Shown piece after piece: positions 43,047 to 56,720 of a DNA stretch of 57,186 nucleotides. The DNA lies in NCBI GenBank assembly GCA_945893365.1, contig CAMDED010000031.1, positions 1-57,186 of the forward strand, in the 5' to 3' direction. Origin of the DNA: Candidatus Sulfopaludibacter sp. SbA3. Its GTDB lineage: Bacteria > Acidobacteriota > Terriglobia > Bryobacterales > Bryobacteraceae. The notes below the pieces were generated by a model, which worked only from the letters and a program-made list of their open reading frames with translations, was not told the DNA's origin and searched no databases. Both the position numbers and the translations under genes were made by a program. Every line of letters starts with the position of its first letter. The first letter of the stretch is position 1.

Positions 43047-43880
43047 TCAGCGGGCGAGCGAGCGCAGAAGGATCCACGTTTTCTCGGCCGCCGGGAGGCT
43101 GATTCTGCGCGACAGGACGTCATACCCCGAATGGCCGATCTTTGCCAGGAGCCGCGAGTAGATTTCGACCAAAGCCCACAATGATCGCCTGCTTCTCGGG
43201 TGGACCAGACCCAGCAGCGGCATGGATTCGTCGTAATACCGGCGCGCACGCGCGGCCTCGAAACGCATCAGATCGAGAAACGCCGGCGTGGGCGCCGCCG
43301 CCCGCAGATCTTCCCCGCGGACGCCGAAGCGATTTAGGTCCTCCGCTGGAAGATAGATCCGCCCGTTTTCGGCGTCTTCGCGGATGTCGCGCAGGATATT
43401 CGTGAGCTGGAACGCGATGCCGCACTTCTCGGCGAGCGGAGGAGCCTCCGGGGAATCGAAGCCGAAGATGTGGATGATGGCCAGGCCAACCACGGAGGCC
43501 ACGTGGTAACAGTAGCGATACAGCCCGTCAAAAGTTTCAGGCTGCTTCGGATCGAGATCGCTTGTGATGCCGTCGATCATCTCGTAAAAGTACCGGGCGG
43601 GAATACCGAAACGCGTTACAGCATCGTGAAACGCCGGCCAGCAGGCGTTCTGGCCGTAGCGTCCGGCGAGCGCATGGTCGAGCGCCGCGCGCCAGCGGTC
43701 GATGGCAGCGCGTTCCGCGCCCGGCTCGTCGCTCAGGTCGTCCGAAGAGCGCATAAAGGCGTAGATGGCGCACATGGCGTCCCGCTGGGGAGGAGAAAGG
43801 AGAAGGAACGAGTAGTAGAAATTCTTAGCGCGCCGCCGCGCGACCGAGCGGCAGTACGCATAGGATTCGGCGGTCGTCAT
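43047..43880 (-). CDS. hpnD: Presqualene diphosphate synthase HpnD
   Basis: HpnD condenses two farnesyl diphosphates to presqualene diphosphate, the first step of the HpnCDE squalene route. The 277-residue trans-isoprenyl synthase fold has both Asp-rich motifs, SSDDLSDEP (about 45-53) and NILRDIREDAENGRIYLP, and AKNFYYSFLLLSPPQRDAMC at the N-terminus. It lies last in the operon, with its ATG sharing one base with the hpnC stop (TGATG). Assignment to HpnD rather than HpnC rests on the SFLLLSP N-terminal pattern and the gene order. Confidence 0.88.
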   Translation of the reverse strand: MTTAESYAYCRSVARRRAKNFYYSFLLLSPPQRDAMCAIYAFMRSSDDLSDEPGAERAAIDRWRAALDHALAGRYGQNACWPAFHDAVTRFGIPARYFYEMIDGITSDLDPKQPETFDGLYRYCYHVASVVGLAIIHIFGFDSPEAPPLAEKCGIAFQLTNILRDIREDAENGRIYLPAEDLNRFGVRGEDLRAAAPTPAFLDLMRFEAARARRYYDESMPLLGLVHPRSRRSLWALVEIYSRLLAKIGHSGYDVLSRRISLPAAEKTWILLRSLAR

Positions 43881-44812
43881 CAGGCGGCTCGTTTTAGCGC
43901 AAATCGCAACAGGGTCCCAATCAGAAGGCCCACTCGCTCGGCCTTCGAGATCGTCGGACGCCCGGCGAGCACGTCATAATCCATCCGCTCGATCTTCCGG
44001 AGCACCTGGAGGCCTCCGCGGCTGAACAACTCCAGATCGACCGAGAGGCGCGCGTCCACCATGCGGGCGAGAGGCCGCCCTGTTACGAAGAACTCCCGCG
44101 CGCGATCCACGGCCTCGCGCATGGCGGCGCGAAATTGCGGCGTCGGGCGCCGCTCCAGGACGTCTTCGAACGACGATCCGTGCTTCTCGAGCGCTTCGAG
44201 CGGGAGGTAGATGCGATCCTTTTCGAGGTCCACCGTCACATCCTGCCAGAAGTTAGCCAGTTGCAGGGCGGTGCAGGTCGCGTCCGAGAGACGCTGGCGC
44301 GCTTCGTCGGAGTAGCCGCAGAGATAGAGCACCAGGCGTCCCACGGGATTCGCGGAATTGCGGCAGTAGGCGAACAGGTCCTGCCACGTGCGGTAGCGCG
44401 TCTCGGTCTGATCCTGTACAAAAGCGTCGATCAGATGGACGAAGGGTTCCCGGGGAATTCCGTACCGCTCGGCCGTGGGGCGGAGGGCCACGAATACGGG
44501 ATGCCGAAGCGGGCGCCCTTCATACATGGCCGCCAGCTCCCCCCGCCACCATTCGAGGAGACGCAGACTCTCGGCGGGTCCGCCCATCTCGTCGCCCAAG
44601 TCGTCCGCCCAGCGGCAGTAGGAGTAGACGTTGTAAAAGTCCTGATGAAGGCGCTTCGGCAGAAGAAAGCTGACGACGTTGAAATTCTCGTAGTGCGAGG
44701 TAGCGAGCGAGCGAGTGTATGCGAGCGCATCGTTCTCCGTCCAGACGGAGGCCATGGCCTCGGGCGAACGCACAAAGTCCCGGACCTGGAGAAAAGCGCT
44801 CCGGAGGAACAC
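43880..44812 (-). CDS. hpnC: Hydroxysqualene synthase HpnC
   Basis: HpnC converts presqualene diphosphate to hydroxysqualene, which HpnE then reduces to squalene. The protein has 310 residues from GTG 44812, or 291 from ATG 44755 (MASVWTENDALAYTRSLATS), which better matches the family N-terminus. Motifs are SHYENFNVVSFLLPKRLHQD, WADDLGDEMGG and NFWQDVTVDLEKDRIYLP. hpnE is not found in this window. It begins one base after the upstream dehydrogenase stop if GTG is used, supporting cotranscription. Confidence 0.88.
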   Translation of the reverse strand: MFLRSAFLQVRDFVRSPEAMASVWTENDALAYTRSLATSHYENFNVVSFLLPKRLHQDFYNVYSYCRWADDLGDEMGGPAESLRLLEWWRGELAAMYEGRPLRHPVFVALRPTAERYGIPREPFVHLIDAFVQDQTETRYRTWQDLFAYCRNSANPVGRLVLYLCGYSDEARQRLSDATCTALQLANFWQDVTVDLEKDRIYLPLEALEKHGSSFEDVLERRPTPQFRAAMREAVDRAREFFVTGRPLARMVDARLSVDLELFSRGGLQVLRKIERMDYDVLAGRPTISKAERVGLLIGTLLRFALKRAA

Positions 44813-44813
44813 G

Positions 44814-45842
44814 TTAAGGAATAATCGCCGTCTTCAGGTGGCCGTTGTGGCTCATGAGATGGCGCATTACTTCCAGCAGATTGGTGAGCGGCTCCTCTTT
44901 GTTGACAAAGTCCCGGGCGGTGATGTCGCCGTTGCTCACAATGTCGAGCGCTTTGCGGATGTGCTGAGGCGTGTGGTGAAAGCTCGCTTTGCAGGTAATT
45001 TCCGAGTAGTGCAGAAGCGACGTGTCGAGGCTCACGCGGCTCTCGTTCGGGCAGCCCCCGAAGAAATTCACGGTGCCGCCGCGGCGGACCATGTCGACGG
45101 CCCAGTGCCAGGTTTCGGGTCTTCCCACGGCTTCAATGGCAATGTCGGCGCCGCGTCCCTGAGTGAGGCTTCGCACCACCACCGCCGGCTTCGGCTGGTC
45201 CGCCGTCGAAATCAACTCGCCGGCGCCCATGGCGGCTGCCCGGTCGAGCTGTGTCTTGCGGCGGCCGATGGCAATCACGCGCGCGCCGTATACCTTCGCC
45301 AGACGGACGAACATGAGCCCGATCGGTCCGAGGCCTATGATGGTGACCGTGTCGCCCGCCTTGATTCCCGTCTCTTCCAGGCCGCGCAGCACGCAGGCGA
45401 GCGGCTCGATCAGCGCCGCGTCCTGGTAGGATATGTGGGCCGGAATCTCGTAAGTATTGCTCTTGACGATACGTTCGGGAATGCGGATGAACTCGGCGTA
45501 CGCGCCGTTGTTGAACAGCAGGTCCTCGCACAGATTTTGCAGGCCGCGGAGGCAAAAGTAGCAGGATGAGCAGGGCGCGGAGTTGGCCGAAACAACCCGC
45601 TGTCCGACCGTGAATTCCGTCACTCTTTCACCGGCCTTGACGACATCTCCGGCCAATTCGTGTCCGAACACCGCTGGTGGAACGATCATTCGCGCGTGGT
45701 AGCCACGGCGGAAGACCTTCACGTCGGTGCCGCAGGTGAGAGCCGCTCGTACCCGGACGAGTATGTCCCCCGGACCCACGGCGGGTATCGCCACCGGCTC
45801 GACCTGCAAATGCTCTTTGCCGTAAAGAACGGCCGCCATCAT
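44814..45842 (-). CDS. Zinc-dependent medium-chain alcohol dehydrogenase in the hopanoid operon (copy A)
   Basis: The 342-residue MDR enzyme starts at ATG 45842 (MMAAVLYGKEHLQVE), aligned with its neighbour's MMAAVY start; GTG 45863 is an alternative that overlaps the previous gene. Catalytic zinc ligands are in CGTDVKVF and FGHELAG, and the structural zinc cysteines are CSSCYFCLRGLQNLC. The NAD(P) motif is IIGLGPIGLMFVRLAK. The C-terminal half includes FHHTPQHIRKALD. The sequence gives no substrate. Its place between hpnG and hpnC suggests oxidation or reduction of a hopanoid side chain, which is inference. Confidence 0.85.
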   Translation of the reverse strand: MMAAVLYGKEHLQVEPVAIPAVGPGDILVRVRAALTCGTDVKVFRRGYHARMIVPPAVFGHELAGDVVKAGERVTEFTVGQRVVSANSAPCSSCYFCLRGLQNLCEDLLFNNGAYAEFIRIPERIVKSNTYEIPAHISYQDAALIEPLACVLRGLEETGIKAGDTVTIIGLGPIGLMFVRLAKVYGARVIAIGRRKTQLDRAAAMGAGELISTADQPKPAVVVRSLTQGRGADIAIEAVGRPETWHWAVDMVRRGGTVNFFGGCPNESRVSLDTSLLHYSEITCKASFHHTPQHIRKALDIVSNGDITARDFVNKEEPLTNLLEVMRHLMSHNGHLKTAIIP

Positions 45843-45850
45843 CTGACTCT

Positions 45851-46909
45851 TCACTGAGCCCACCTCTGTGGCTGAACGATTATTTTCAATGATTTTTCAT
45901 CGGGATGCAATGCCAATTCCATACCTGCTGCTATTTTATCAAGCGGAAAGCGATGAGAAATAAGCGCCTCCACCGGAAGAGCTCCGCTGAATACGAGTTC
46001 GGCGGACTCCCGCTGCAGTTCTACCGAGGCGCTATAGCACCCAAAAACCCGCCGCTCACCCATACAGATGCTTGCACCGGAGAATTCGATGCGTTCCCGA
46101 TCCGACGTCTGTGCAAATAATAGCAGACGCGCGCCCGGACGTGAAGAGCGAATCGCCTCATCCACCAAGCCGGGCGCCGATGTGGCGAGGACTACAATAT
46201 CCGCTCCGCGGCCGTCCGTCAAGGTTTGAATCGCCGTAGCGGCATCGGTTTCCCTCGGATTCCAGGCGTGCGACGCCCCGGAGCGGCGCGAGGTTTCCAG
46301 GCGATCGGCGAGGGTATCGGTCGCGACGACGCAGGCGCCGGAGCGCTTCACGAGCATTGTGAACAGCAAGCCGATCGGTCCCTGACCCATGATGAGCACG
46401 GTGTCGTCCGGCTTCGGATCGCACTCGACTACGGCCTTGAGACAGGTGTTCACCGGCTCGACGAACGCGGCGCGTTCGAAGGAAACGCCGTCCGGAATCT
46501 TCTCCACGCCACGCTCGACAATCCAATCCATCACCCGTACATATTGCGCGAAGCCGCCGCCCGCGGGCTCAAACCCCGCCGTTACGCCGACTTTCTTATA
46601 GACAGGGCACTGGGCGAAAATTTTCTTCCGGCAGTAGAAACAATTCAGGCACGGGATGTGATGGAAGACCACCACGCGGTCGCCCGCCTTGAACCTCGTG
46701 ACGCCGGAACCGGCCGCGGCGACTATGCCGGCGGTCTCGTGGCCGAAAATGCGGGGTGGGGGCAACAGATCGTATTCGATCTTCTTGAGATCGGTATGGC
46801 AGATGCCGCACGCTTCCACGCGTACCAGCAGCTCTCCGGCGCCGGCGGATGGAGTAGGTACCTGCTCCACGGAGACGACGCTCCTCCCCCGGTAGACGGC
46901 CGCCATCAT
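45851..46909 (-). CDS. Zinc-dependent medium-chain alcohol dehydrogenase in the hopanoid operon (copy B)
   Basis: The 352-residue MDR enzyme starts at ATG 46909. A GTG at 46993 would overlap hpnG by 29 bases and adds a non-homologous leader. Catalytic zinc ligands are in CGICHTDLKK and FGHETAG, and structural zinc cysteines in CLNCFYCRKKIFAQC. The NAD(P) motif is IMGQGPIGLLFTMLVK. It is clearly different in sequence from copy A beside it, so the two are likely old paralogues with distinct roles. The gap to copy A is 8 bases. Both follow hpnG, whose product carries an aldehyde when the ribose opens; a reductase for that step is a plausible role. Confidence 0.85.
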   Translation of the reverse strand: MMAAVYRGRSVVSVEQVPTPSAGAGELLVRVEACGICHTDLKKIEYDLLPPPRIFGHETAGIVAAAGSGVTRFKAGDRVVVFHHIPCLNCFYCRKKIFAQCPVYKKVGVTAGFEPAGGGFAQYVRVMDWIVERGVEKIPDGVSFERAAFVEPVNTCLKAVVECDPKPDDTVLIMGQGPIGLLFTMLVKRSGACVVATDTLADRLETSRRSGASHAWNPRETDAATAIQTLTDGRGADIVVLATSAPGLVDEAIRSSRPGARLLLFAQTSDRERIEFSGASICMGERRVFGCYSASVELQRESAELVFSGALPVEALISHRFPLDKIAAGMELALHPDEKSLKIIVQPQRWAQ

Positions 46910-46964
46910 CTGTAGGGGAATGGTGTCGGAAGCGCCGGATGGGACGCCTGCGGGGGCCGCGATG

Positions 46965-47762
46965 TCAGAACCGGCAACTGGCAATAAAATCACCCAAGCT
47001 TTCCGACGCCTTGCGGCAGCGGCTTCTCAAACGTAACAATTCGGGCGCGCGGGTCAACGGCCTCGCGGCGGTTCCGAGCAAGATACGAACTAAATCGAAC
47101 CGGCCGTCGGGCCGTAATGCGCGGTTAAGGTCGGCTGAAAAGCCTTCTCCGGCTAGATCCGAAACCGACTTAATGCAGAACAAACGAATTTTACATTCTC
47201 GCACTATCGGAGCTATTCCCGCAGCTTCCATTTCCACGGCGACCGCGCCGGTTGCACGCAACCGAGCTTTCTCGGAGGCGGTTTGCGCCACGTGATCGAT
47301 AGACGCCACCGGGCCGGACGTGGAGGGGCGGCTGGAAACCGGCTGCGCGGCGTCAAATTCCCCCGAGGGTCCGTGGATGGCGCTGGCGACGACGATATCC
47401 CCCACCCGGAGGCTGGGATCGAGCGCTCCGCAAAAGCCAACGCTCACGACGGCATCGAATAAAACCTCCGGCGCCGTCGAATAGGCATCCGGCGGTCCGG
47501 GAATGGCCGGTGGCACGAAGTTGTCTGCGCGCCGGGCGTCGAGCGCGTCCGCCCGGCGTCCGGTTTCCCGAAGAGCCGCCTCTACAATCGCCGCTCCCCT
47601 CGAAGGACCGGCCCCATTTGCCGCCATCCGGATCTCCTTTCCTCCAAGCGATGCGGCGCAGGCCCAATATACGGGCCATCGAAGCCTCTTTACGTCCCTG
47701 CAGTGCCGCAGCAGACCGGCGAATTCCATGCGATCCGCGCCGGCAAAAAGAATCGCGCCCAC
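46965..47762 (-). CDS. hpnG: Hopanoid-associated nucleoside phosphorylase HpnG
   Basis: HpnG removes adenine from adenosylhopane to give (phospho)ribosylhopane, the branch point to bacteriohopanepolyols. The 265-residue phosphorylase-superfamily protein has VSVGFCGALDPSLRVGDIVV, the purine/ribose-site segment AVAVEMEAAGIAPIV and VSDLAGEGF. The start is GTG 47762, immediately after the hpnA stop (TGAGTG). hpnH, which makes adenosylhopane, is not in this window. Homologous nucleosidases are the alternative, but the context favours HpnG. Confidence 0.82.
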   Translation of the reverse strand: MGAILFAGADRMEFAGLLRHCRDVKRLRWPVYWACAASLGGKEIRMAANGAGPSRGAAIVEAALRETGRRADALDARRADNFVPPAIPGPPDAYSTAPEVLFDAVVSVGFCGALDPSLRVGDIVVASAIHGPSGEFDAAQPVSSRPSTSGPVASIDHVAQTASEKARLRATGAVAVEMEAAGIAPIVRECKIRLFCIKSVSDLAGEGFSADLNRALRPDGRFDLVRILLGTAARPLTRAPELLRLRSRCRKASESLGDFIASCRF

Positions 47763-48737
47763 TCAGCTGTATCCGTTCGCCCGGAACCAATCCACAGCGC
47801 GCAAGAGAGCCGCGTCCACCGGTCCGGGTTCAAAGCCCAATTCCCGCCTTGCTTTTTCGTGAGAAACGAACATCTTCTTCTTCGCCATTCGGACCGCGTC
47901 GAGGGGGACGCGTGGCTCGCCTCCCGCCACGTGTGCCCATGCAGTGGTTACGACGCCCGCCATCCACGCCACAGCCCAGGGCAGCTTTATCGCCGGCGCC
48001 GGCTTTGCCATGATCTTCGCCAGCCGCCCCAGGATCCGCTCCAAAGTCAGATTTTCCGCCCCCAGGATATAGCGCTCGCCCGGCCTCCCCCGTTCACACG
48101 CCAGCAGGTGCCCATGCGCGACGTCGCGGACATCCACCAGATTCAGGCCGGTGTCGATGAAAGCCGGCATCCTGCCGTTCATGAAATCGAGCACGATCTT
48201 CCCGGTTGGAGTGGGCTTCACGTCATGGTCCCCGACCGGCGCTGTAGGATTTACGATCACCACCGGGAATCCCAGCCGCGCATACTCGATCGCGGCCAAC
48301 TCGGCCAGAAACTTGGAACGCTTGTAGGCGCCAACCATCCGGTCGAGCGACACCGGCAAATCCTCGCTTCCTAGCCCCCCTTCCGGCACCCCAATGCAGC
48401 CGACAGTACTGGTGTAGACGACTCGGTCCACGCCCGCCCACCGCGCCGCCTCCAACAGATTCCGCGTGCCTTCCACATTCGACGCGAATAACTCGGAGGG
48501 ATCCTTTGCCCACAATCTGTAGTCCGCGGCGACGTGATACACGGCCTCGCAGCCCGCCACCGCCTGCGCGAGCGATTGGGGATCGCGCAGATCCCCAATC
48601 GCCGTTTCCGCCTCCAAGTCCCGAAGCTTACTCGTGGACCGAATCAGCGCCCTAACCTTCCGTCCGGCCGCCAGTAGTTCGCGCGCGACGTGCCAGCCGA
48701 CAAAGCCCGACGCGCCGGTAACCAGAATAGGCCTCAC
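47763..48737 (-). CDS. hpnA: Hopanoid-associated sugar epimerase HpnA
   Basis: The 324-residue extended SDR protein has NAD motif LVTGASGFVGWHVARELL and catalytic YxxxK as YKRSK, followed by VVIVNPTAPVGDHDVKPTPT and FIDTGLNLVDVRDVAHGHLL, stretches characteristic of HpnA. Its reaction is not settled; sugar side-chain modification is assumed from family membership. It lies 38 bases downstream of the cyclase gene. The start is GTG 48737 with GAGGCGAG upstream. Confidence 0.88.
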   Translation of the reverse strand: MRPILVTGASGFVGWHVARELLAAGRKVRALIRSTSKLRDLEAETAIGDLRDPQSLAQAVAGCEAVYHVAADYRLWAKDPSELFASNVEGTRNLLEAARWAGVDRVVYTSTVGCIGVPEGGLGSEDLPVSLDRMVGAYKRSKFLAELAAIEYARLGFPVVIVNPTAPVGDHDVKPTPTGKIVLDFMNGRMPAFIDTGLNLVDVRDVAHGHLLACERGRPGERYILGAENLTLERILGRLAKIMAKPAPAIKLPWAVAWMAGVVTTAWAHVAGGEPRVPLDAVRMAKKKMFVSHEKARRELGFEPGPVDAALLRAVDWFRANGYS

Positions 48738-48775
48738 GGCTCTCGCCTCACGAACTCAGGATGGGCCGTCCCCTT

Positions 48776-50698
48776 TTAGGACGCGCGTCCGGCCTTCAAA
48801 AACGCCGACAACGCCATTACCGGAAAATAGAGCCGGTATAAATGATAATTCAAGTAAAATACCTTCGGAAATCCGGTGCCGGTCGCGAGGCGCTCGTCCC
48901 AATCGCCATCGCGCCGCTGCGTTTCGATCAGATACTCGACGCCGTGCCGGACGCTGACGCTCGTCGTGTCTCCGCCCGCGATCAAGCCCATGATCGCCCA
49001 TGCGGTCTGCGAGGGCGTGCTGGGCGCCGGCGTGAAACACCCGTTATCGTAGCTCGCGCAGCTTTCGCCCCAGCCGCCATCCGGATTCTGGATGGAGCGC
49101 AGCCACTCGCCACCGCGAAGGACGTGCGCTTCCCGGTCGCTTTCGCCGGCCGCCGCCAAGCCGCGCAAAGCGAAACACGTTCCGTAAATATAGGCCACGC
49201 CCCAACGGCCATACCAACTGCCATCCGCTTCCTGATGGCGAATCAGATATTCCGCCCCGCGGCGGACGGCCGGGTGTTCCCGGCTGAACCCGTGAGCCTT
49301 CAACGCCTCGAGAATACGGCCGGTGATATCGGCGCAGGTCGGGTCGAGCATGGCGTTATGATCGGCGAAGGGTACGTCCGCCAGGAAATGCCAATCGTTA
49401 TCGACGTCGAAGGCCGCCCAACCTCCGTCCTTCGACTGCATCGCAAGCAGCCAGTCGAGAGCGCGTCTGTGGCAGGCGCGTTGCGCGTCGCGGTCCGAGG
49501 CGCGGGCGTGGCTCAAGGCCAGCAGCACCATGGCGGTGTCGTCGATGTCCGGGTAAAACGCGTTCGCGTACTCGAAGCACCAACCTGAAGGCTCCGCGCG
49601 CGGGCGCTTCACGGACCAGTCGCCCTTCCGGCGAATTTCCCGGTCCAGGAACCAGTCGGCAGCGCGCTGAAGGGGTTCGGCGGCGGAGGCGCCGGCCTCG
49701 CCTATCGCATAGGCGGCCATCGCCGTGTCCCAGACGGGTGAGAAGCACGGCTGGAAAAGGAAACGTCCGCCTTCATCCACCATCAGGTGGTTGAACTGGC
49801 GAAGCGCTTCCACGCGTTCGGGATGGTCCGCCGGATACCCCAGGACATCGAACGCCATGATGGCGTACATCATGGGCGGGTAGATCGCACCCAGTCCGTC
49901 GGAATCCTTGGTCCGTTCGATCATCCACCGCTCGGCTTCGCGGATGGCTCTGGCGCGGATCGAGCGCGGCCCTCGCCTTTCCCAGAATTTCAGAAACCGG
50001 TCGGCGGCCAGAAAAAAATTACGCCATGTCCACAGTTTGCCGCTTCGTTCGAGTCCCGTGGGCACTCCGGGTAGGAAGAGTTCCTCAAGATTGAAGCCCT
50101 CCGGCACGGGGCGCATCGGATTGTGCGCGTGGACGATTGAGAGAGCGACGACGATCGCGCGCGTCCAAGAGGACATCTGGAAGAGGAAATTGAACGGGAG
50201 GAGCACGAATTCGGGCGGAATCGTCGGACAAGCCTCGCGGGGATAGAGTCCGAACAGGCTGAGGTTGACCTTGACGTAGCTGTTTGCCGCCTGAATCCCG
50301 CCCCGCGACAGGATACACTCGCGGGCCTTCGCCATATGCGCCTCGTTCACATCGTAGCCCGCAAGCTTGAGGGCGAAATAGGCCTTCACCGTGGCGCTGA
50401 TCTCGGTCGGTCCGCAGGCGTAGATGTTGAATCCGCCGTCCGGAAGCTGGCGGTCCAGAATTGACCTGGCTGCCTTATCGACCAAGGCGCGGCTCTCGGG
50501 ATTCCAGTGCCCTCCGGTTGGGGGGTACAGCCAAAGTTGAAGCAGAATGAAGTCGGATTCGAGGGTTGAATCGGCGGTCAGCTCCGCGCACCACTCGCCG
50601 TCCGCATCCTGCAGCTCGAGAAGGCGGGCCGCCGCGCGATCAAGCGTCTTGCCCGCCGTGGAAATCAGGTCGCCCCGAAGTTGCAGACTCGGTGTCAT
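48776..50698 (-). CDS. shc: Squalene-hopene cyclase
   Basis: The membrane-associated cyclase converts squalene to hopene and hopanol. The 640-residue protein has the two alpha-barrel domains with multiple QW repeats (for example QLPDGGFNIY, QSKDGGWAAFD, QNPDGGWGESC, QRRDGDWDE). The catalytic acid motif is DIDDTA at 384-389. The length is normal, and an FNFLFQMSSWTRAI segment (about 169-182) is consistent with the membrane-entry region. Its ATG overlaps the ispH stop by 4 bases (ATGA), coupling isoprenoid supply to cyclisation. Confidence 0.95.
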   Translation of the reverse strand: MTPSLQLRGDLISTAGKTLDRAAARLLELQDADGEWCAELTADSTLESDFILLQLWLYPPTGGHWNPESRALVDKAARSILDRQLPDGGFNIYACGPTEISATVKAYFALKLAGYDVNEAHMAKARECILSRGGIQAANSYVKVNLSLFGLYPREACPTIPPEFVLLPFNFLFQMSSWTRAIVVALSIVHAHNPMRPVPEGFNLEELFLPGVPTGLERSGKLWTWRNFFLAADRFLKFWERRGPRSIRARAIREAERWMIERTKDSDGLGAIYPPMMYAIMAFDVLGYPADHPERVEALRQFNHLMVDEGGRFLFQPCFSPVWDTAMAAYAIGEAGASAAEPLQRAADWFLDREIRRKGDWSVKRPRAEPSGWCFEYANAFYPDIDDTAMVLLALSHARASDRDAQRACHRRALDWLLAMQSKDGGWAAFDVDNDWHFLADVPFADHNAMLDPTCADITGRILEALKAHGFSREHPAVRRGAEYLIRHQEADGSWYGRWGVAYIYGTCFALRGLAAAGESDREAHVLRGGEWLRSIQNPDGGWGESCASYDNGCFTPAPSTPSQTAWAIMGLIAGGDTTSVSVRHGVEYLIETQRRDGDWDERLATGTGFPKVFYLNYHLYRLYFPVMALSAFLKAGRAS

Positions 50699-51696
50699 GG
50701 GTAGGAAATCGGTGTCAATCCGCTAATTTGCGCCAGTTCCGGTGGAAGCGAGAAACGCACCTCTTCTTCAATCAGCTCGACCTCTTCGACATTGCGGAAC
50801 CCGCTGCTTCTCAGCGACTCGATCACGCCCTGAACGAGATTCTCGGGGGCGGAAGCCCCGGCCGTCACCGCCACGTTCCGCACCTCCCCGAGCCATGCCG
50901 GATCGATATGCTCCGCATCGTCCACAAGGTAAGACCGCACACCGTGGTTATCGCAGACTTCGACCAGCCGCTTCGAATTCGAGCTATTCCGCGATCCCAC
51001 CACCAGCAACAGTTGGCAAAAAGGAGCCACGGCCTTCACCGCCATCTGACGGTTCTCGGTGGCGTAACAAATGTCCTGGGCCGGGGGGCCCTGAATCAGC
51101 GGGAACTTTTGCTTCAGCCGTTCCACGATGTCGCGCGTTTCATCGAGACTCAGCGTGGTTTGCGTCAGATAGCAGACGCGCGTCGCGCCGGAAATCTCGA
51201 GCGCGTCCACGTCGCCCACGTCTGAAACCAGATGAGTGCGCTCGGGCGCCTCGCCCAGCGTGCCGACCACTTCGTCGTGATCCTTGTGCCCGATCAGTAC
51301 GATCGTGTAACCCTCGCGCGCAAACTTGACGGCCTCGAGATGGACCTTTGTTACGAGCGGACAGGTCGCGTCAATCACTCTCAACTTCCGCTCCCTCGCC
51401 TCGGCGCGGACTTGCGGAGAGACTCCGTGCGCGCTGAAGATCGTTCGCGCTCCAAACGGCACATCCGACAACTCGTCCACGAAGATTGCGCCCGCGTTCC
51501 GCAGGCCATCCACGACGTGCCTATTGTGTACAATCTCCTTGCGTACGTAGATCGGTGGGCCGTAAGCCTGAAGCGCGATCTCGACGACGTCGATTGCACG
51601 CACCACACCGGCGCAAAATCCGCGGGGTTTTAGCAGAAAAATCTTTTTTTCGGCTCCGGTCCCCGTTGCTGCGGCGTCGAAAGGCTTTAATGGCAT
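50695..51696 (-). CDS. ispH: 4-Hydroxy-3-methylbut-2-enyl diphosphate reductase
   Basis: IspH performs the last MEP-pathway step, giving IPP and DMAPP. The 333-residue protein has the three cluster cysteines Cys28 (PRGFCAG), Cys112 (DATCPLV) and Cys210 (DICYAT), with active-site HDEVVGT and TQTTLS. It is the first gene of the hopanoid operon, followed by shc with a 4-base overlap. The promoter at 51725-51753 lies 28 bases upstream. An ispH copy at the head of a hopanoid operon suggests dedicated precursor supply; whether a second ispH exists elsewhere cannot be seen. Confidence 0.95.
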   Translation of the reverse strand: MPLKPFDAAATGTGAEKKIFLLKPRGFCAGVVRAIDVVEIALQAYGPPIYVRKEIVHNRHVVDGLRNAGAIFVDELSDVPFGARTIFSAHGVSPQVRAEARERKLRVIDATCPLVTKVHLEAVKFAREGYTIVLIGHKDHDEVVGTLGEAPERTHLVSDVGDVDALEISGATRVCYLTQTTLSLDETRDIVERLKQKFPLIQGPPAQDICYATENRQMAVKAVAPFCQLLLVVGSRNSSNSKRLVEVCDNHGVRSYLVDDAEHIDPAWLGEVRNVAVTAGASAPENLVQGVIESLRSSGFRNVEEVELIEEEVRFSLPPELAQISGLTPISYP

Positions 51697-51724
51697 GGAC
51701 GATTATTGGTATGTAAAACTCCCA

Positions 51725-51753
51725 ATTATACCAGCAAGCCGGGCCAATCCGAA
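51725..51753 (-). promoter_or_regulatory. Promoter of the ispH-hopanoid operon
   Basis: On the minus strand a perfect TATAAT (51730-51725) is preceded by TGG, giving an extended -10 element. A weak TTCGGA lies 17 bases upstream (51753-51748). The message would have a leader of about 20 bases before ATG 51696. Confidence 0.65.
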
Positions 51754-52055: not shown

Positions 52056-52631
52056 CTAGCGCTCGTAGCCTTCAGGGTCGACCTCAATCTGAACCGCCCA
52101 GAAAGCCCACGCCTCCGCGCTGGAGGTCGTGAGTTGCCTGATGTCTTTCATTTTAGCGCTCTTCTTCAGTGCCTTAACGTTGCGGCCTCTGCTTTTCGTC
52201 TCGCTGCCTCGGGAGGATGCCTGTCCCTCCCGAGTTTTGCTTTTCCATCTGTTTTCCGGCCGGTGGAGTCTGTGTTCGTCAGCTCCCCATCCATCGGCTT
52301 TTTCACGAAAAGCTCTTCGGGCCTGTCTCTTTTCCTTGGCCCTGCCCAGTTGGCCCGGCTCGGGCGCTTGGTTCTGGACGACACTCACGACTTCCGCGGA
52401 TTTCAGGCCGCGGCCCTTGGCTTCGTCCGGCGTTGTTAGCTCGCCGCGGCCCGGTAGCGTTTCAGGTGCGGGAAGAAACGGAAGACTCCGCTGCGCGGGC
52501 AACCCGCCGTAACGGCGGAAGCCTTGTCGCGAATTTGGCGCACGCCTTGCCCACCCCGCTCTAGGTAAGTTGCGAGCAGGTGGCGACTCATGGGTAATGC
52601 CCGCCATGGCCCGCTTATTGTATGCTGGCAC
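52056..52631 (-). CDS. Doubtful basic hypothetical protein
   Basis: A 191-codon frame rich in Arg, Lys, Gly and Ser with little hydrophobic core. Only the last 30 residues (MKDIRQLTTSSAEAWAFWAV, then QIEVDPEGYER) look like a folded protein. The plus strand here is unusually pyrimidine-rich compared with neighbouring genes, which suggests foreign or repeat-derived DNA. No family is recognised. It may be part of the same mobile or decayed patch as the inverted-repeat element to its left. Confidence 0.28.
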   Translation of the reverse strand: MPAYNKRAMAGITHESPPARNLPRAGWARRAPNSRQGFRRYGGLPAQRSLPFLPAPETLPGRGELTTPDEAKGRGLKSAEVVSVVQNQAPEPGQLGRAKEKRQARRAFREKADGWGADEHRLHRPENRWKSKTREGQASSRGSETKSRGRNVKALKKSAKMKDIRQLTTSSAEAWAFWAVQIEVDPEGYER

Positions 52632-52645
52632 TCGGAGGGTACGCG

Positions 52646-53689
52646 ATGGATATCGATCGGCGCCGGTTCCTGGCTGGCGCGATTGCCGCGCAAGCGCTTG
52701 CGGCGGGAGGTAGAGTCCGGACGGGCATCCTCGGAGTCGAGCACAGCCACCTCGGCGGAAAGTTGCAGGCCATGTACGGCAATCCCGATTATGAAGTGGT
52801 GTCGGTGTGCGAGCCCAATGAAGCTACGCGCAGGGCGCGCTCGGGCGACAAGGCGCTCAGCCGGTTGCGCTGGGTTTCGATGGACGAGATGCTTGCCGAC
52901 CGTACACTCGATCTGATCGTGTTCGAGGGCGAGGTCAAGGACGCGGTACCCTTTGGAAAACGCGTCATCGAGGCGGGGAAACACCTGCATCTGGAGAAAC
53001 CGCCAACAAACCGAATGGAGCCGTTTCGCGAGCTTGTCGAACTGGCGCGCAAACGCAATCGACTCTTACAGCTTGGCTACCTGTGGCGGTTCCATGCGGG
53101 AACCACTGCCGCGATCGAAGCCTGCAAGGAGGGCTGGCTCGGCGACCTCCTCATGATCCGCGCCACCATAGATTCGGACCGCGGCGCGGACCAGCGTGCC
53201 GTCGAAGCGCGTTATCCCGGCGGGAGCATGTTTGAATTGGGCGGGCACATGATCGACCGGGTCGTCGCCGCTCTTGGCCGGCCAGCCACGGTCCGCCATT
53301 GGCTCCGGCACGACACAAGCGTCAAGGATACCCTCAAAGACAACACCCTCGCCGTATTCGAATACGCCTCGACTTTGGCAATCATCGCAAGCTCCTCGAA
53401 GGTGTCGAACGTCGAGCGTCATCGTTCCTTCGAGGCGATCGGCGCCGACGGTTCTGTGATGGTGCAACCGATGGAACCCGCTCCGGTCATTCGCATCGAT
53501 ATGCGTGAAGATCGGGGACCGTACAAGAAGGGAACCCAGGAAATCGCGCTGCCGCCGCAGCCGCGCTTCATCAAGGACTTCGAGGAACTCGGACGCGCCA
53601 TCAGAACCGGGAGGCCGCTACAGTATTCTTACAACCACGAATTGTTGTTGCACGAGACCCTCTTGCGAGCTTCCGGCGAAATCGCCTAA
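52646..53689 (+). CDS. Secreted Gfo/Idh/MocA-family oxidoreductase
   Basis: The 347-residue protein has a Tat-like signal (MDIDRRRFLAGAIAAQALAA). The NAD(P)-binding domain starts VRTGILGVEHSHLGG, where the usual GxGxxG is altered, followed by the family EKP motif in HLHLEKPPTNRMEPF and the C-terminal domain (GGSMFELGGHMIDRVVAALG, where His binds substrate in relatives). The substrate is unknown, probably a sugar or cyclitol. ATG 52646 has GGAGGG 7 bases upstream. A second family member follows after 15 bases. Confidence 0.88.
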   Translation: MDIDRRRFLAGAIAAQALAAGGRVRTGILGVEHSHLGGKLQAMYGNPDYEVVSVCEPNEATRRARSGDKALSRLRWVSMDEMLADRTLDLIVFEGEVKDAVPFGKRVIEAGKHLHLEKPPTNRMEPFRELVELARKRNRLLQLGYLWRFHAGTTAAIEACKEGWLGDLLMIRATIDSDRGADQRAVEARYPGGSMFELGGHMIDRVVAALGRPATVRHWLRHDTSVKDTLKDNTLAVFEYASTLAIIASSSKVSNVERHRSFEAIGADGSVMVQPMEPAPVIRIDMREDRGPYKKGTQEIALPPQPRFIKDFEELGRAIRTGRPLQYSYNHELLLHETLLRASGEIA

Positions 53690-53704
53690 CCAGGACTGAA
53701 AACT

Positions 53705-54844
53705 ATGAACCAGACGAATCCGGGCCGCCGCGGTTTTCTTCACGCCGCGTTCCTCATGCCGATCGCCGCCGTGCGCGGGACCGCTGCGAATTCGGCGGTC
53801 ACCGTTGGGCTTGTGGGCTGCGGCAATCGCGGCGCGTATCTCGGCCAGACGCTAACGGAGCATACACAGGCGCGGCTGACGTCGCTCTGCGACCTATACC
53901 CCGAGCAGATCGCCAAGGCCAGGCAGAAGATCGGGCGCAGCGATTTCGCGATCTTCGGGGCGCTGGACAAGATGCTCGCCTCGCCGGTCGATGCCGTTCT
54001 GATTGCAACTCCGGTGTTTCTTCACCCCGGGCATTTCGAAGCCGCGGTCGAGGCCGGCAAGCACGTGTATCTGGAAAAGCCCGCGGCGCCGGACGTCGAA
54101 GGTTGCCGGCGAATCGAGAAGGCCGCCGCAGCCGTTCGCGGCCGCGACGTCGGCTTCGGTTTTCAGCGGCGTCATGGCGAGGTGTACACGGCGGGTTATA
54201 AATTCCTTCAGAGCGGAAAGATCGGGCCTGTCGGCATGGCCAGTGTTCGGTTCGTCAAGTCGGAAGGCGGAGGCAGGTCGAGGACCCAGGGGCCGCCGAG
54301 AACCTTCGATGAAAAAGTGAAGAACTGGTATCTTTGGCGGACGCTGTGCGGCGATCAGATTGTCGAGAACAACTGCCATCTGATCGACGTGATGAACTGG
54401 TTTGTGGGATCGCGTCCCGAGTCGGCGATCGGCGACGGCGGCCGCACGCCGGGCCGCGATGGCGATGTTCGCGACTACAACAATGTGGTTTACACGTACG
54501 CGCGGAACGTGAAGGGCGCCCTATGGGGGACTACGCTCGCGCCGCCCAATCATCGCGACGTCCGGGAGGAGTTCTTCGGCTCGGCCGGCTGGCTCGAAAC
54601 ATCCGAGCTCGGGTGGCGCTACCGGCTGGCTGGAAAAGAGGCAGCCGAAGTGAAATCGCCGCGCAATATTTCGATTGATTCCGTGGTGGCCTTCGTGAAT
54701 CGCATCCAATCCGGCAAGACGGAGAATACGATTGCGCGCGGCGTGGAATCCTCGCTCACAGCCATCCTGGGCCGCTTGGCGATGGACCTGAAAAGGCAGG
54801 TCTCCTGGGGCGAAATGCTGGCGTCGAACGGCTGGCCCGCCTGA
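53705..54844 (+). CDS. Secreted Gfo/Idh/MocA-family oxidoreductase
   Basis: The 379-residue protein has a Tat-type signal (GRRGFLHAAFLMPIAAVRG). The Rossmann domain includes VTVGLVGCGNRGAYLGQTL and HVYLEKPAAPDVEGC. The C-terminal half has the segment CGDQIVENNCHLIDVMNWFV, typical of the secreted acidobacterial/planctomycete subgroup, and RNISIDSVVAFVNRIQSGKT. It forms an operon with the gene before it. The pair likely acts on the same sugar-type substrate in the periplasm. The gene converges on the SDR gene, with 59 bases between stops. Confidence 0.9.
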   Translation: MNQTNPGRRGFLHAAFLMPIAAVRGTAANSAVTVGLVGCGNRGAYLGQTLTEHTQARLTSLCDLYPEQIAKARQKIGRSDFAIFGALDKMLASPVDAVLIATPVFLHPGHFEAAVEAGKHVYLEKPAAPDVEGCRRIEKAAAAVRGRDVGFGFQRRHGEVYTAGYKFLQSGKIGPVGMASVRFVKSEGGGRSRTQGPPRTFDEKVKNWYLWRTLCGDQIVENNCHLIDVMNWFVGSRPESAIGDGGRTPGRDGDVRDYNNVVYTYARNVKGALWGTTLAPPNHRDVREEFFGSAGWLETSELGWRYRLAGKEAAEVKSPRNISIDSVVAFVNRIQSGKTENTIARGVESSLTAILGRLAMDLKRQVSWGEMLASNGWPA

Positions 54845-54903: not shown

Positions 54904-55692
54904 CTATTTCTTAAGCGTCGCTTTCGTTGCGCCGGTTGAAATGCCGCCGTCGACAAGCAGCGTCTGCCCCGTAATGTAGCGGCTTTCCTCGGACGCGAGG
55001 AATACAACCGCGCCGTCCAGGTCGTTGGGCTGGCCCGGTCGCTTCAGGGGGATGCGGTCGCAGATGTATTCGACCCATTCCTTGTTCTCGTACAGCGCCT
55101 TATTCTGCTCGGTGCGGAACCAGCCGGGAGCGAGACAGTTCACCGTAATTCCATGAGGGCCCCAATCGTCGGCGAGACTCATGGTCAACTGCTTCACGCC
55201 GCCCCGGCTCGCCGTGTACGGGCCCAGCCCGGCGTAACCAAAGACGCTCGTGACGGAACCGATGTTCACGATGCGCCCATAGCCGTTCGGAATCATTTTT
55301 CGCGCCACCGCCTGGGCGACGAAAAACGTACCGCGCAAGTTCGTCTCAAGGACAAGGTTCCAATCGTCCCACGTGATGTCGAGGGCCGGCTTCCGCACGT
55401 TGCATCCCGCGTTGTTGATCAGGATGTCGATCTTCGGGTAGGCCGCGGCCGCGGCGTCCGCCATCCGCCGGATGCTTCGCTCATCGCGCACATCCAGCTC
55501 GACGGGGACTGCCCGCCGTCCGAGATCCTCGATTTCTTTCTGAAACCCGCCGAGCGAGTCGAGCGTGCGGCTGGTGATGACAAGGTCGGCGCCCGCCCGC
55601 GCTAAAGCCCGTCCGAAATACTGGCCGAGTCCGCGGCTTGCGCCCGTCACGATGGCGACGCTGCCGGTCAGATCGAAGTAGGGTGAGCTCAC
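54904..55692 (-). CDS. Short-chain dehydrogenase with an altered active site (YxxxR)
   Basis: The 262-residue classical SDR has NAD(P) motif VTGASRGLGQYFG, NNAGCN and active-site Ser in NIGSVTSVFG. The tetrad Tyr is in GPYTASRGGVKQL, where the canonical Lys is Arg (CGG codon). The C-terminus ITGQTLLVDGGIS is standard. Closest by eye to gluconate/2-deoxygluconate dehydrogenase-like SDRs. The start is GTG 55692, overlapping the upstream dehydrogenase stop by 4 bases (GTGA), so both enzymes are coupled and probably act in one sugar-acid pathway. The Lys-to-Arg change may alter or lower activity. Confidence 0.87.
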   Translation of the reverse strand: MSSPYFDLTGSVAIVTGASRGLGQYFGRALARAGADLVITSRTLDSLGGFQKEIEDLGRRAVPVELDVRDERSIRRMADAAAAAYPKIDILINNAGCNVRKPALDITWDDWNLVLETNLRGTFFVAQAVARKMIPNGYGRIVNIGSVTSVFGYAGLGPYTASRGGVKQLTMSLADDWGPHGITVNCLAPGWFRTEQNKALYENKEWVEYICDRIPLKRPGQPNDLDGAVVFLASEESRYITGQTLLVDGGISTGATKATLKK

Positions 55693-56720
55693 GGCTGGAC
55701 AATGACCTTCATAAGATTCGGTTCGTGCTTGTACAGCCGGTCGAACCAACTCGCGGCATCCTCAAGAGGAGTTCGCGCGCTGATCATCGATTCGACCTTG
55801 ATTGCGCCGCTCGACAGCAATTCGATGCATGCCGGGTACTCGCCCGACGATGCACAGGAACCCTGCAGGCGAATCTGCCGGGTGACAACCTGCTGCAATG
55901 GCAGCTCGATCTTCGGTGTGATGTTCCCGATCAACGTGACGGAGCCGCCTTTGCGCACAGATAGAATTGCCGTGCGAACCGGGTCCGTCGCTCCCACGGC
56001 TTCGAGCGCCGCATCCGCGCCGCGTCCATTGGTTCGCGCCGCGATCTCCGACGGAGCGTCGCAGGTCTTCGAGTTAAAGGTCTCGTCCGCGCCAAGTCTT
56101 CGGGCCATGGCAAGTTTGGCGTCGTCCACGTCGACCGCGAACACGCGGCTGAAACCGGCTACCTTCGCGGCCTGAATTGTGAGTTGTCCGATCATTCCGC
56201 TTCCCACCACAACCGCGGTGTCGCCCAGAGAGCGGGGCGTCAGGTTCACGGCGTGCACGGCGATCGAGACCGCCTCGATCATCGCCGCGTACTCGAACGG
56301 AAGACCGCTCGGCAACCGGTAGAGAATGTTCCGCGGGACCTGCACATATTCGGCGAAAGCGCCGTTGCGGCGGAAATCGCCGCAGGAAACGCCCAGGACC
56401 TGCCGGTTGTCGCACAAGTTAATATCGCCGCGGCGGCAGAAGTGGCAATTGCCGCAGGAGACCGTGGAATCGAAGGTCACGGCATCGCCTTCCTTCCAGT
56501 CGTTCACGTTTCGCCCCGTCTCGGCGATCACACCCGCCGCTTCGTGTCCCATAACCACGGGCGGGATTCGCCGGCCGCTTGAGCCATCCATCCCGTGGAC
56601 GTCGCTCCCGCAGATGCCGCAGGCCCGCACGCGAACCAGCACGTCGTCCGGACCGATCTCGGGCTTGGGCAGGTCTGTGACTTCGAGCTGCATGTACTGC
56701 TTTAACAAGAGTGCTTTCAT
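55689..56720 (-). CDS. Zinc-dependent medium-chain alcohol/sugar dehydrogenase
   Basis: The 343-residue MDR enzyme starts at ATG 56720 (MKALLLKQYMQLEVTDLPKP). Catalytic zinc residues are in CGICGSDVHG and MGHEAAG, structural zinc cysteines in CGNCHFCRRGDINLC, and the NAD motif in VVGSGMIGQLTIQAAK. It resembles sorbitol/threonine-type dehydrogenases; the substrate is not determined. It is coupled to the SDR gene downstream. The putative group II intron begins 38 bases upstream of the start, so the native promoter has probably been displaced. Confidence 0.9.
   Translation of the reverse strand: MKALLLKQYMQLEVTDLPKPEIGPDDVLVRVRACGICGSDVHGMDGSSGRRIPPVVMGHEAAGVIAETGRNVNDWKEGDAVTFDSTVSCGNCHFCRRGDINLCDNRQVLGVSCGDFRRNGAFAEYVQVPRNILYRLPSGLPFEYAAMIEAVSIAVHAVNLTPRSLGDTAVVVGSGMIGQLTIQAAKVAGFSRVFAVDVDDAKLAMARRLGADETFNSKTCDAPSEIAARTNGRGADAALEAVGATDPVRTAILSVRKGGSVTLIGNITPKIELPLQQVVTRQIRLQGSCASSGEYPACIELLSSGAIKVESMISARTPLEDAASWFDRLYKHEPNLMKVIVQP

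Follow-up and report, generated by a model that had tools for sequence, protein, structure and literature searches.

The window analysed here is the whole stretch of 57,186 nucleotides of contig C31 (CAMDED010000031.1) from the assembly of Candidatus Sulfopaludibacter sp. SbA3 (7.9 Mb, 96.7% complete). Its closest named relatives are metagenome-assembled genomes (MAGs) of Bryobacterales/Bryobacteraceae (Acidobacteriota). It contains a hopanoid cluster that encloses two genes for zinc-dependent medium-chain dehydrogenases/reductases (MDR), designated MDR1 and MDR2. The cluster consists of eight consecutive open reading frames (ORFs) of the minus strand, from 51696 to 43047, identified by NCBIfam and Pfam and listed below with a putative promoter element:

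51725..51730, minus strand: TATAAT, a perfect match but a possible -10 element only, 28 bases upstream of ispH
50695..51696, minus strand: ispH, 4-hydroxy-3-methylbut-2-enyl diphosphate reductase (NF002189, 470 bits, cut-off 444)
48776..50698, minus strand: shc, squalene-hopene cyclase (SHC; TIGR01507, 650 bits, cut-off 431; PF13243, 447 bits in the search of its own genome)
47763..48737, minus strand: hpnA, hopanoid-associated short-chain dehydrogenase/reductase annotated as 'sugar epimerase' (TIGR03466, 465 bits, cut-off 368)
46965..47762, minus strand: HpnG-type phosphorylase (TIGR03468, 126.2 bits, below the cut-off of 187.1; PF01048; position)
45851..46993, minus strand: MDR1, zinc medium-chain dehydrogenase, predicted NAD(H)-type (PF08240 and PF00107)
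44814..45863, minus strand: MDR2, zinc medium-chain dehydrogenase, predicted NADP(H)-type (PF08240 and PF00107)
43880..44812, minus strand: hpnC, squalene synthase HpnC (TIGR03464, 343 bits, cut-off 250)
43047..43880, minus strand: hpnD-type, presqualene diphosphate synthase (TIGR03465, 265.5 bits, just under the cut-off of 278.6; PF00494; adjoins hpnC)

These searches confirm the eight minus-strand hopanoid genes that a sequence-only reading of this DNA had named, the HpnG-type and HpnD-type proteins remaining under their curated cut-offs. For the latter, TIGR03465 is the best of six NCBIfam models. As for HpnG, the search of 22 other genomes (20 acidobacterial and 2 armatimonadotal, also used for HpnA) gave a match at E 1e-8 in 18 of them while none reached 187.1 bits, so this cut-off seems unsuited to the group. 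The genes had also been described as overlapping or lying within about 55 bases of each other. This agrees with the gaps between the ORFs as called (-29 to +38 bases) and with the hpnG-MDR1 gap, which is 55 bases when the ATG near 46909, where the orthologues align, is taken as the probable start of MDR1; MDR2 possibly starts at the ATG near 45842. The claim of one strong promoter fared less well: a sigma-70 promoter scan reported no site upstream of ispH, the TATAAT listed above included. Strong matches to hpnE and hpnH are found in the same genome outside the window, on contigs C26 and C167, respectively.

MDR1 and MDR2 match both PF08240 and PF00107 (gathering cut-offs 23.5 and 31.8) with 91.4 and 66.3 bits for the former and 86.4 and 84.7 bits for the latter. 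All zinc motifs are kept, as the sequence-only reading had stated. In 15 aligned MDR1 sequences, the catalytic-type zinc ligands C65, H85, E86 and E179 and the structural-zinc cysteines C115, C118, C121 and C129 are invariant, and D226 is near-invariant. In the same way, C44, H68, E69 and E153 and the cysteines C98, C101, C104 and C112 are invariant in 17 aligned MDR2 sequences. The roles of these ligands are presumably those of the characterised family members. Where the second Rossmann strand (beta-2) ends, MDR1 proteins carry an Asp in 117 of 118 rows and a Glu in one. MDR2 proteins have a Lys or an Arg at the position after the end of this strand (114 of 124 rows) and an Arg one residue further on (111 of 124). 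The rows are partly redundant, sample overlaps being included, and those of MDR2 take in nine (L140-L148) from loci without hpn genes. MDR1 is thus predicted to be NAD-type and MDR2 NADP-type, i.e., their cofactor signatures are opposite. The AlphaFold models (mean predicted local distance difference test scores of 84.6 for MDR1 and 89.6 for MDR2) are closest to a Sinorhizobium zinc dehydrogenase, 4ej6 for MDR1 (Z 41.7, root-mean-square deviation 2.2, 338 aligned residues) and its NADP-bound form 4ejm for MDR2 (Z 43.7, deviation 1.8, 334 aligned residues), followed closely by sorbitol dehydrogenases and the ketose reductase 1e3j.

Hopanoids are membrane lipids resembling sterols, and bacteriohopanepolyols serve widely as biomarkers of bacteria. 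The reading that is tentatively preferred here, with somewhat less than even confidence, is that MDR1 and MDR2 form a redox pair acting on the hopanoid side chain, MDR1 being the likelier ribosylhopane reductase. HpnH and then HpnG would yield ribosylhopane, whose sugar ring can open to an aldehyde. MDR1, which is predicted to be NADH-type and stays with hpnG, would reduce this ring-opened aldehyde to bacteriohopanetetrol. MDR2, predicted to be NADPH-type, could perform a second redox step on the side chain, or draw on the other cofactor pool for the same reduction. Both would be zinc polyol/aldose-type dehydrogenases recruited as a pair to act on the sugar-derived C5 side chain. We infer the substrate, the direction of the reaction and the division of labour between the two enzymes. 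The accessible text of PMC12583986 (November 2025) presents the enzyme converting ribosylhopane to bacteriohopanetetrol as not established, in agreement with the sequence-only reading, which had called it not well defined. The part of PMC5462960 (Sinninghe Damste et al. 2017) that was accessible gives the enzyme of this step as unknown and suggests HpnA.

The conservation of the pair was examined in a phylum sample of 247 Acidobacteriota genomes, whose family codes (f2, f28, f39, etc.) are groupings within this sample, and in named loci, the best 80 of 567 relatives. The two sets partly overlap (L217 is the same contig as L103, and further overlaps are suspected). An MDR1 gene was counted as beside hpn genes when the fetched stretch, at most about 10 kb per side, contained ispH or one or more labelled hpn genes. 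Detection limits were E 1e-60 for HpnH and HpnA, 1e-20 for SHC, 1e-8 for HpnG, 1e-30 for HpnE, 1e-35 for MDR1 and 1e-50 for MDR2, and the NCBIfam cut-off for HpnC (E 1e-30 for genome G007). The hpnG labels of loci come from a profile iterated from the HpnG of the window itself; the gene so labelled in L226 matches PF01048 but is not HpnG at E 1e-30 by NCBIfam.

MDR1 orthologues form a distinct tier in 38 of the 247 genomes (359-850 bits, the next match having 210.6 bits). All 38 also have MDR2, whose own tier starts at 350.7 bits and includes G132 as well, for a total of 39 genomes. In 36 of the 38 genomes (exceptions G221 and G066) and in 78 of the 80 best named loci (exceptions L239 and L264, from Armatimonadota), MDR1 is found beside hpn genes. 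The sequence-only reading had named a lack of conserved linkage in related genomes as what would refute it; what is found is linkage. The fullest gene order is ispH-shc-(hpnH)-hpnA-hpnG-MDR1-MDR2-hpnC-hpnD-(hpnE), and ispH is the first labelled cluster gene in many relatives. The gene directly upstream of MDR1, according to a gene-order counter using stop-to-stop ORFs, is hpnG in 24 of the 38 genomes, hpnA in 10 and ispH in one, with none in three; among the 80 loci it is hpnG in 61 and hpnA in seven, with none in 12. In L246, L251 and L268, the hpnA-shc-ispH block is on the opposite strand and MDR1-MDR2-hpnC are still joined. As a side remark, L217 (CALQCC020000014.1, the same contig as G187:C14) holds an acidobacterial hopanoid cluster under the title of a 'Bordetella parapertussis' MAG and looks mislabelled.

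The two genes are not always adjacent. They stand apart in 17 of the 38 genomes, all belonging to family f2; the ORF counter, which differs slightly from tblastn coordinates, gives 20 adjacent pairs instead of 21. MDR1 follows an hpnG-type gene in all 17 split genomes (hpnA-hpnG in 16 of them, hpnG alone in G130). By tblastn coordinates, hpnC comes directly after MDR2 in all 17 as well, while the ORF counter places hpnC there in 15, hpnD in one and none in one; the hpnC of L165 is in two pieces. These separate partners after splitting make MDR1 a neighbour of the side-chain genes and MDR2 a neighbour of the squalene genes. Since MDR1 is retained next to hpnG, it is the member that most likely reduces ribosylhopane.

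HpnH was detected in 35 of the 38 MDR1 genomes versus 27 of the 209 others (Fisher p 4e-22, by genome and uncorrected for relatedness). By family code, these numbers become 5 of 5 versus 11 of 68 (p 3e-4, likewise uncorrected), the total of 73 families being the highest code seen. HpnC shows a looser association with MDR1 (28 of 38 versus 40 of 209). In f28, the pair is kept in eight of nine genomes without HpnC over the cut-off and without HpnE at E 1e-30, one of these eight (G211) being 84% complete; neither MDR therefore seems dependent on HpnC or HpnE. The hpnD-type genes are kept with MDR1-MDR2 at the f28 loci L104, L105, L107-L111 and L114, and seven of the eight genomes have a second SQS_PSY (squalene/phytoene-synthase) gene elsewhere. 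The three MDR1 genomes without HpnH are G113, G211 and G221. SHC, HpnA and an HpnG match are present in G113, and the pair of G211 lies between ispH-hpnA and hpnD.

These profiles bear on another possibility, that MDR2 takes part in squalene synthesis, for example on the hydroxysqualene made by HpnC, and that only MDR1 acts on the side chain. The position of MDR2 directly before hpnC in every split genome fits this proposal, as does the accessible text of PMC5462960, which groups a gene called ug2 with hpnC-D-E. It is nevertheless improbable: MDR2 is kept in the eight f28 genomes just mentioned and shares the family and the pairing of MDR1. Furthermore, it is absent at E 1e-50 from 34 of the 35 genomes that have HpnC over the cut-off and no HpnH, the exception being G221.

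An unrooted, quick maximum-likelihood tree without bootstrap (3 of 265 rows dropped for length, 76 kept after culling at 72% identity) sheds some light on the origin of the pair. The MDR1 and MDR2 groups are on opposite sides of a branch with a Shimodaira-Hasegawa-like approximate likelihood ratio (SH-aLRT) of 99. At seven loci of other families (L140, L142, L147, L150, L151, L153 and L154), a tandem MDR pair gives one member to each side. Read by eye, the genomes with unlinked pairs of this kind number at least 13 that are HpnH-positive (three families) and at least six that are HpnH-negative (four families), so that these pairs are not clearly tied to hopanoids. Neighbours identified at four of their loci are a helicase, a chorismate mutase-prephenate dehydratase, an FAD oxidoreductase and a beta-propeller protein; the other neighbours there gave no Pfam match. 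The simplest account of these sequence data would be that a two-gene dehydrogenase module came first and later joined the hopanoid cluster in a single lineage, a direction that we infer. The pair is also found in two Armatimonadota genomes (L239 and L264, titled Chthonomonadales), away from the hpnA-hpnG genes; both genomes have HpnA over the cut-off and an HpnG match. In L264, a methyltransferase gene comes after the MDR1-MDR2 pair.

The polyol pathway combines an NADPH reductase and an NAD dehydrogenase. This precedent fits a redox relay, in which one MDR would use NAD+ to oxidise a hydroxyl of the side chain and its partner would use NADPH to reduce the resulting ketone, so that an alcohol is inverted or moved. 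The pair would then yield a side-chain stereoisomer or ketose form instead of carrying out the first aldehyde reduction. The paralogues, separated by SH-aLRT 99 and bearing opposite cofactor signatures, are consistent with such a relay, and the tandem layout appears to be older than the hopanoid link, as expected for two enzymes with a common substrate. However, the genes stand apart in the split genomes, the cofactor preferences are predictions, and no unusual stereoisomer was found in the literature consulted, the accessible text of PMC5462960 reporting only tetrafunctionalised products in almost all strains. The relay is therefore held to be unlikely, if less so than the role of MDR2 in squalene synthesis.

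Several observations weigh against the preferred reading of a side-chain redox pair. MDR1 is absent from 27 of the 62 HpnH-positive acidobacterial genomes. G221, estimated to be 100% complete, has the pair and lacks detectable SHC (1e-20), HpnH (1e-60) and HpnG (1e-8). G132 has an MDR2 orthologue (380.6 bits), while SHC, HpnH and HpnG were not found in it at the same limits. In G066, the genes that precede the pair, which lies away from the hpn genes of this genome, encode a WYL-domain regulator and a proline dehydrogenase. Of the two Armatimonadota genomes, one has SHC and the other gave no match. The sister pairs in other families have no hpn neighbours in the fetched stretches, the contigs of L149 and L153 being shorter than 4 kb. 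MDR2 adjoins squalene genes, not side-chain genes, in the split genomes. One reductase suffices, yet two enzymes are present. Finally, HpnA is a rival for the reduction, and 17 of the 18 genomes with an HpnG match have it over its cut-off.

Some of these observations would be expected if MDR1 and MDR2 were general polyol or ketone dehydrogenases riding in the operon without any hopanoid role. The sister pairs lack hpn neighbours and the few neighbours identified are unrelated; besides, the pair lies outside any hpn cluster in G221 (L137) and G066 (L138), both from family f39. Such a passenger status remains improbable considering the linkage in nearly all MDR1 genomes, across several families, the phylogenetic profile with HpnH, and the fact that both genes separately stay with hpn genes after splitting.

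HpnA could itself be the ribosylhopane reductase, in which case the MDR pair would modify the side chain at a later stage, or optionally. Of the 22 genomes searched, 18 have HpnA over the cut-off, some of them HpnH-positive and devoid of MDR1, and HpnA was proposed for this step in the accessible text of PMC5462960. The same text cites that HpnA is dispensable for bacteriohopanetetrol in one species and missing from some producers, and hpnA is absent from 6 of 48 HpnH-positive alphaproteobacterial genomes according to the accessible part of PMC12583986. In addition, G059 has HpnH and an HpnG match without HpnA over the cut-off. This alternative is considered rather unlikely, ranking a little below the relay.

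It should be emphasized that the absence of MDR1 from these 27 HpnH-positive genomes rules out the MDR pair as a universal ribosylhopane reductase. Seven MDR1-less HpnH-positive loci with a shc-hpnH-hpnA block were inspected (L172, L174-L178 and L180). A squalene/phytoene-synthase-family gene and/or dxs lies downstream of hpnA-hpnG in L172, L174, L175 and L178, and L177 has genes for hydroxymethylglutaryl-CoA reductase and mevalonate decarboxylase further downstream. No replacement reductase was found in these seven loci, some ORFs after hpnG (those of L176 and L180 and the first two of L177) being without identification. G007 (L171) was considered as a natural knockout. Its HpnH and SHC are present while MDR1, MDR2, HpnC, HpnG and HpnA were not found within the E limits, and its synteny with the sister genome G171 ends just before hpnA. 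It was rejected because several genes are missing together, so that single genes cannot be judged.

A more specific version of the preferred reading, doubtful as it stands, would make MDR1 the ribosylhopane reductase and MDR2 its NADPH-dependent partner, both recruited ready-made from an older polyol-type pair, with unrelated enzymes filling the step in other lineages. If true, this would explain the lack of a single conserved gene for the step. Likewise, if the assignment of MDR1 is right, its absence from many HpnH-positive acidobacteria suggests that evolution found more than one solution to the step. The sequence-only reading had proposed side-chain redox steps for one or both dehydrogenases. 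This is still the best reading, with the qualification that the two genes are not equivalent and that the pair does not accompany HpnH everywhere.

Some other features of this genome deserve mention. The HpnH on C167 (G000:C167:14052-15002; L006, L182) is the only one of the genome over the cut-off and is isolated close to an end of its contig. Its identity is 65-78% with the HpnH of five Acidobacteriales-type loci but 39-47% with the HpnH encoded inside the cluster at 20 further loci, many from Bryobacterales (52% for one fragment of 83 residues), as if an in-cluster hpnH had been lost and then replaced. Other SHC-like matches in the genome, at C16, C158, C8 and C99, have at most 92 bits. In the window, a DinB-family ORF follows hpnD, 84 bases on. 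A third MDR dehydrogenase (55689-56693, minus strand) is 34% identical to MDR1 and matches IolM with 233 bits, below the cut-off; before it, two ORFs of the plus strand (52622-54844) resemble Gfo/Idh-type oxidoreductases by eye.

Taken together, the cluster is real and conserved, and its dehydrogenase pair is a good candidate for the ribosylhopane step. MDR1 and MDR2 provide two named, assayable candidates, tied to hpnG by position and phylogenetic profile, for a step to which PMC12583986 still assigns no enzyme. MDR2 stands beside MDR1 and hpnC in the window and in most named loci of Bryobacterales, which we take to be subdivision 3. On this subdivision, the accessible text of PMC5462960 varies, the Results describing cluster A as reduced by the absence of ug2 and the Discussion placing ug2 in all of subdivisions 1 and 3; all strains tested from these two subdivisions made bacteriohopanepolyols and/or C30 hopenes. 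The remark on ug2 in PMC5462960 is the only one on a hopanoid-linked dehydrogenase found in the accessible literature, subscription papers being mostly outside the search, so that this absence carries little weight; no sequence-defined family of ribosylhopane reductases was met there either. The linkage of MDR genes to the hpn cluster is thus largely known already. The sequence-only reading had called the pair its best candidate for new biochemistry, and this stands as a candidate for an unassigned step rather than as a new linkage. Compared with the literature found, what appears new is the pairing, the opposite cofactor signatures, the partner split, the independence from HpnC and HpnE, the older sister pairs and the occurrence in Armatimonadota.

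Among known systems, the closest are the acidobacterial hopanoid clusters A and C of PMC5462960. In the accessible text, gene ug1 comes after hpnA-hpnG, and ug2, of about 350 residues and often annotated as a zinc-binding alcohol dehydrogenase, before hpnC. These positions match those of MDR1 and MDR2, which suggests, together with the description, that ug1 is MDR1 and ug2 is MDR2. The order in the window agrees with that text (hpnA-hpnG-ug1; ug2-hpnC-hpnD-hpnE) save for hpnE, located on C26. However, ug1 is given no family there, neither gene is given a function, and nothing presents the two as paired enzymes whose cofactor signatures are opposite.

The tandem MDR pairs of families f32, f60, f25, f45, f34, f47 and f66 share the layout of MDR1-MDR2. 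They differ from it by their identity of 28-45%, and several of their MDR2-side members have an Asp and not Gly-Arg-Arg.

None of the NCBIfam MDR equivalog models listed reaches its cut-off (0 of 24 for MDR1 and 0 of 23 for MDR2). The best match of both is IolM, the scyllo-inosose 3-dehydrogenase (NF041097), with 156 bits for MDR1 and 173 bits for MDR2, whereas its cut-off of 450 bits is far off and inositol genes are lacking among the eight of the cluster. In the same way, tdh (L-threonine 3-dehydrogenase) scores 153 and 158 bits against a cut-off of 458. The zinc polyol MDRs, such as sorbitol dehydrogenase, the ketose reductase 1e3j and L-threonine 3-dehydrogenase, have the fold, the zinc-ligand pattern and the two-domain layout in common with MDR1 and MDR2. 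However, the identity with the listed solved chains is 20-34%, and clade motifs set both proteins apart from them, TAGFEPxGGGFAEYVRVMDWIV and SYSAS in MDR1, and GYHARM and FHHTP in MDR2.

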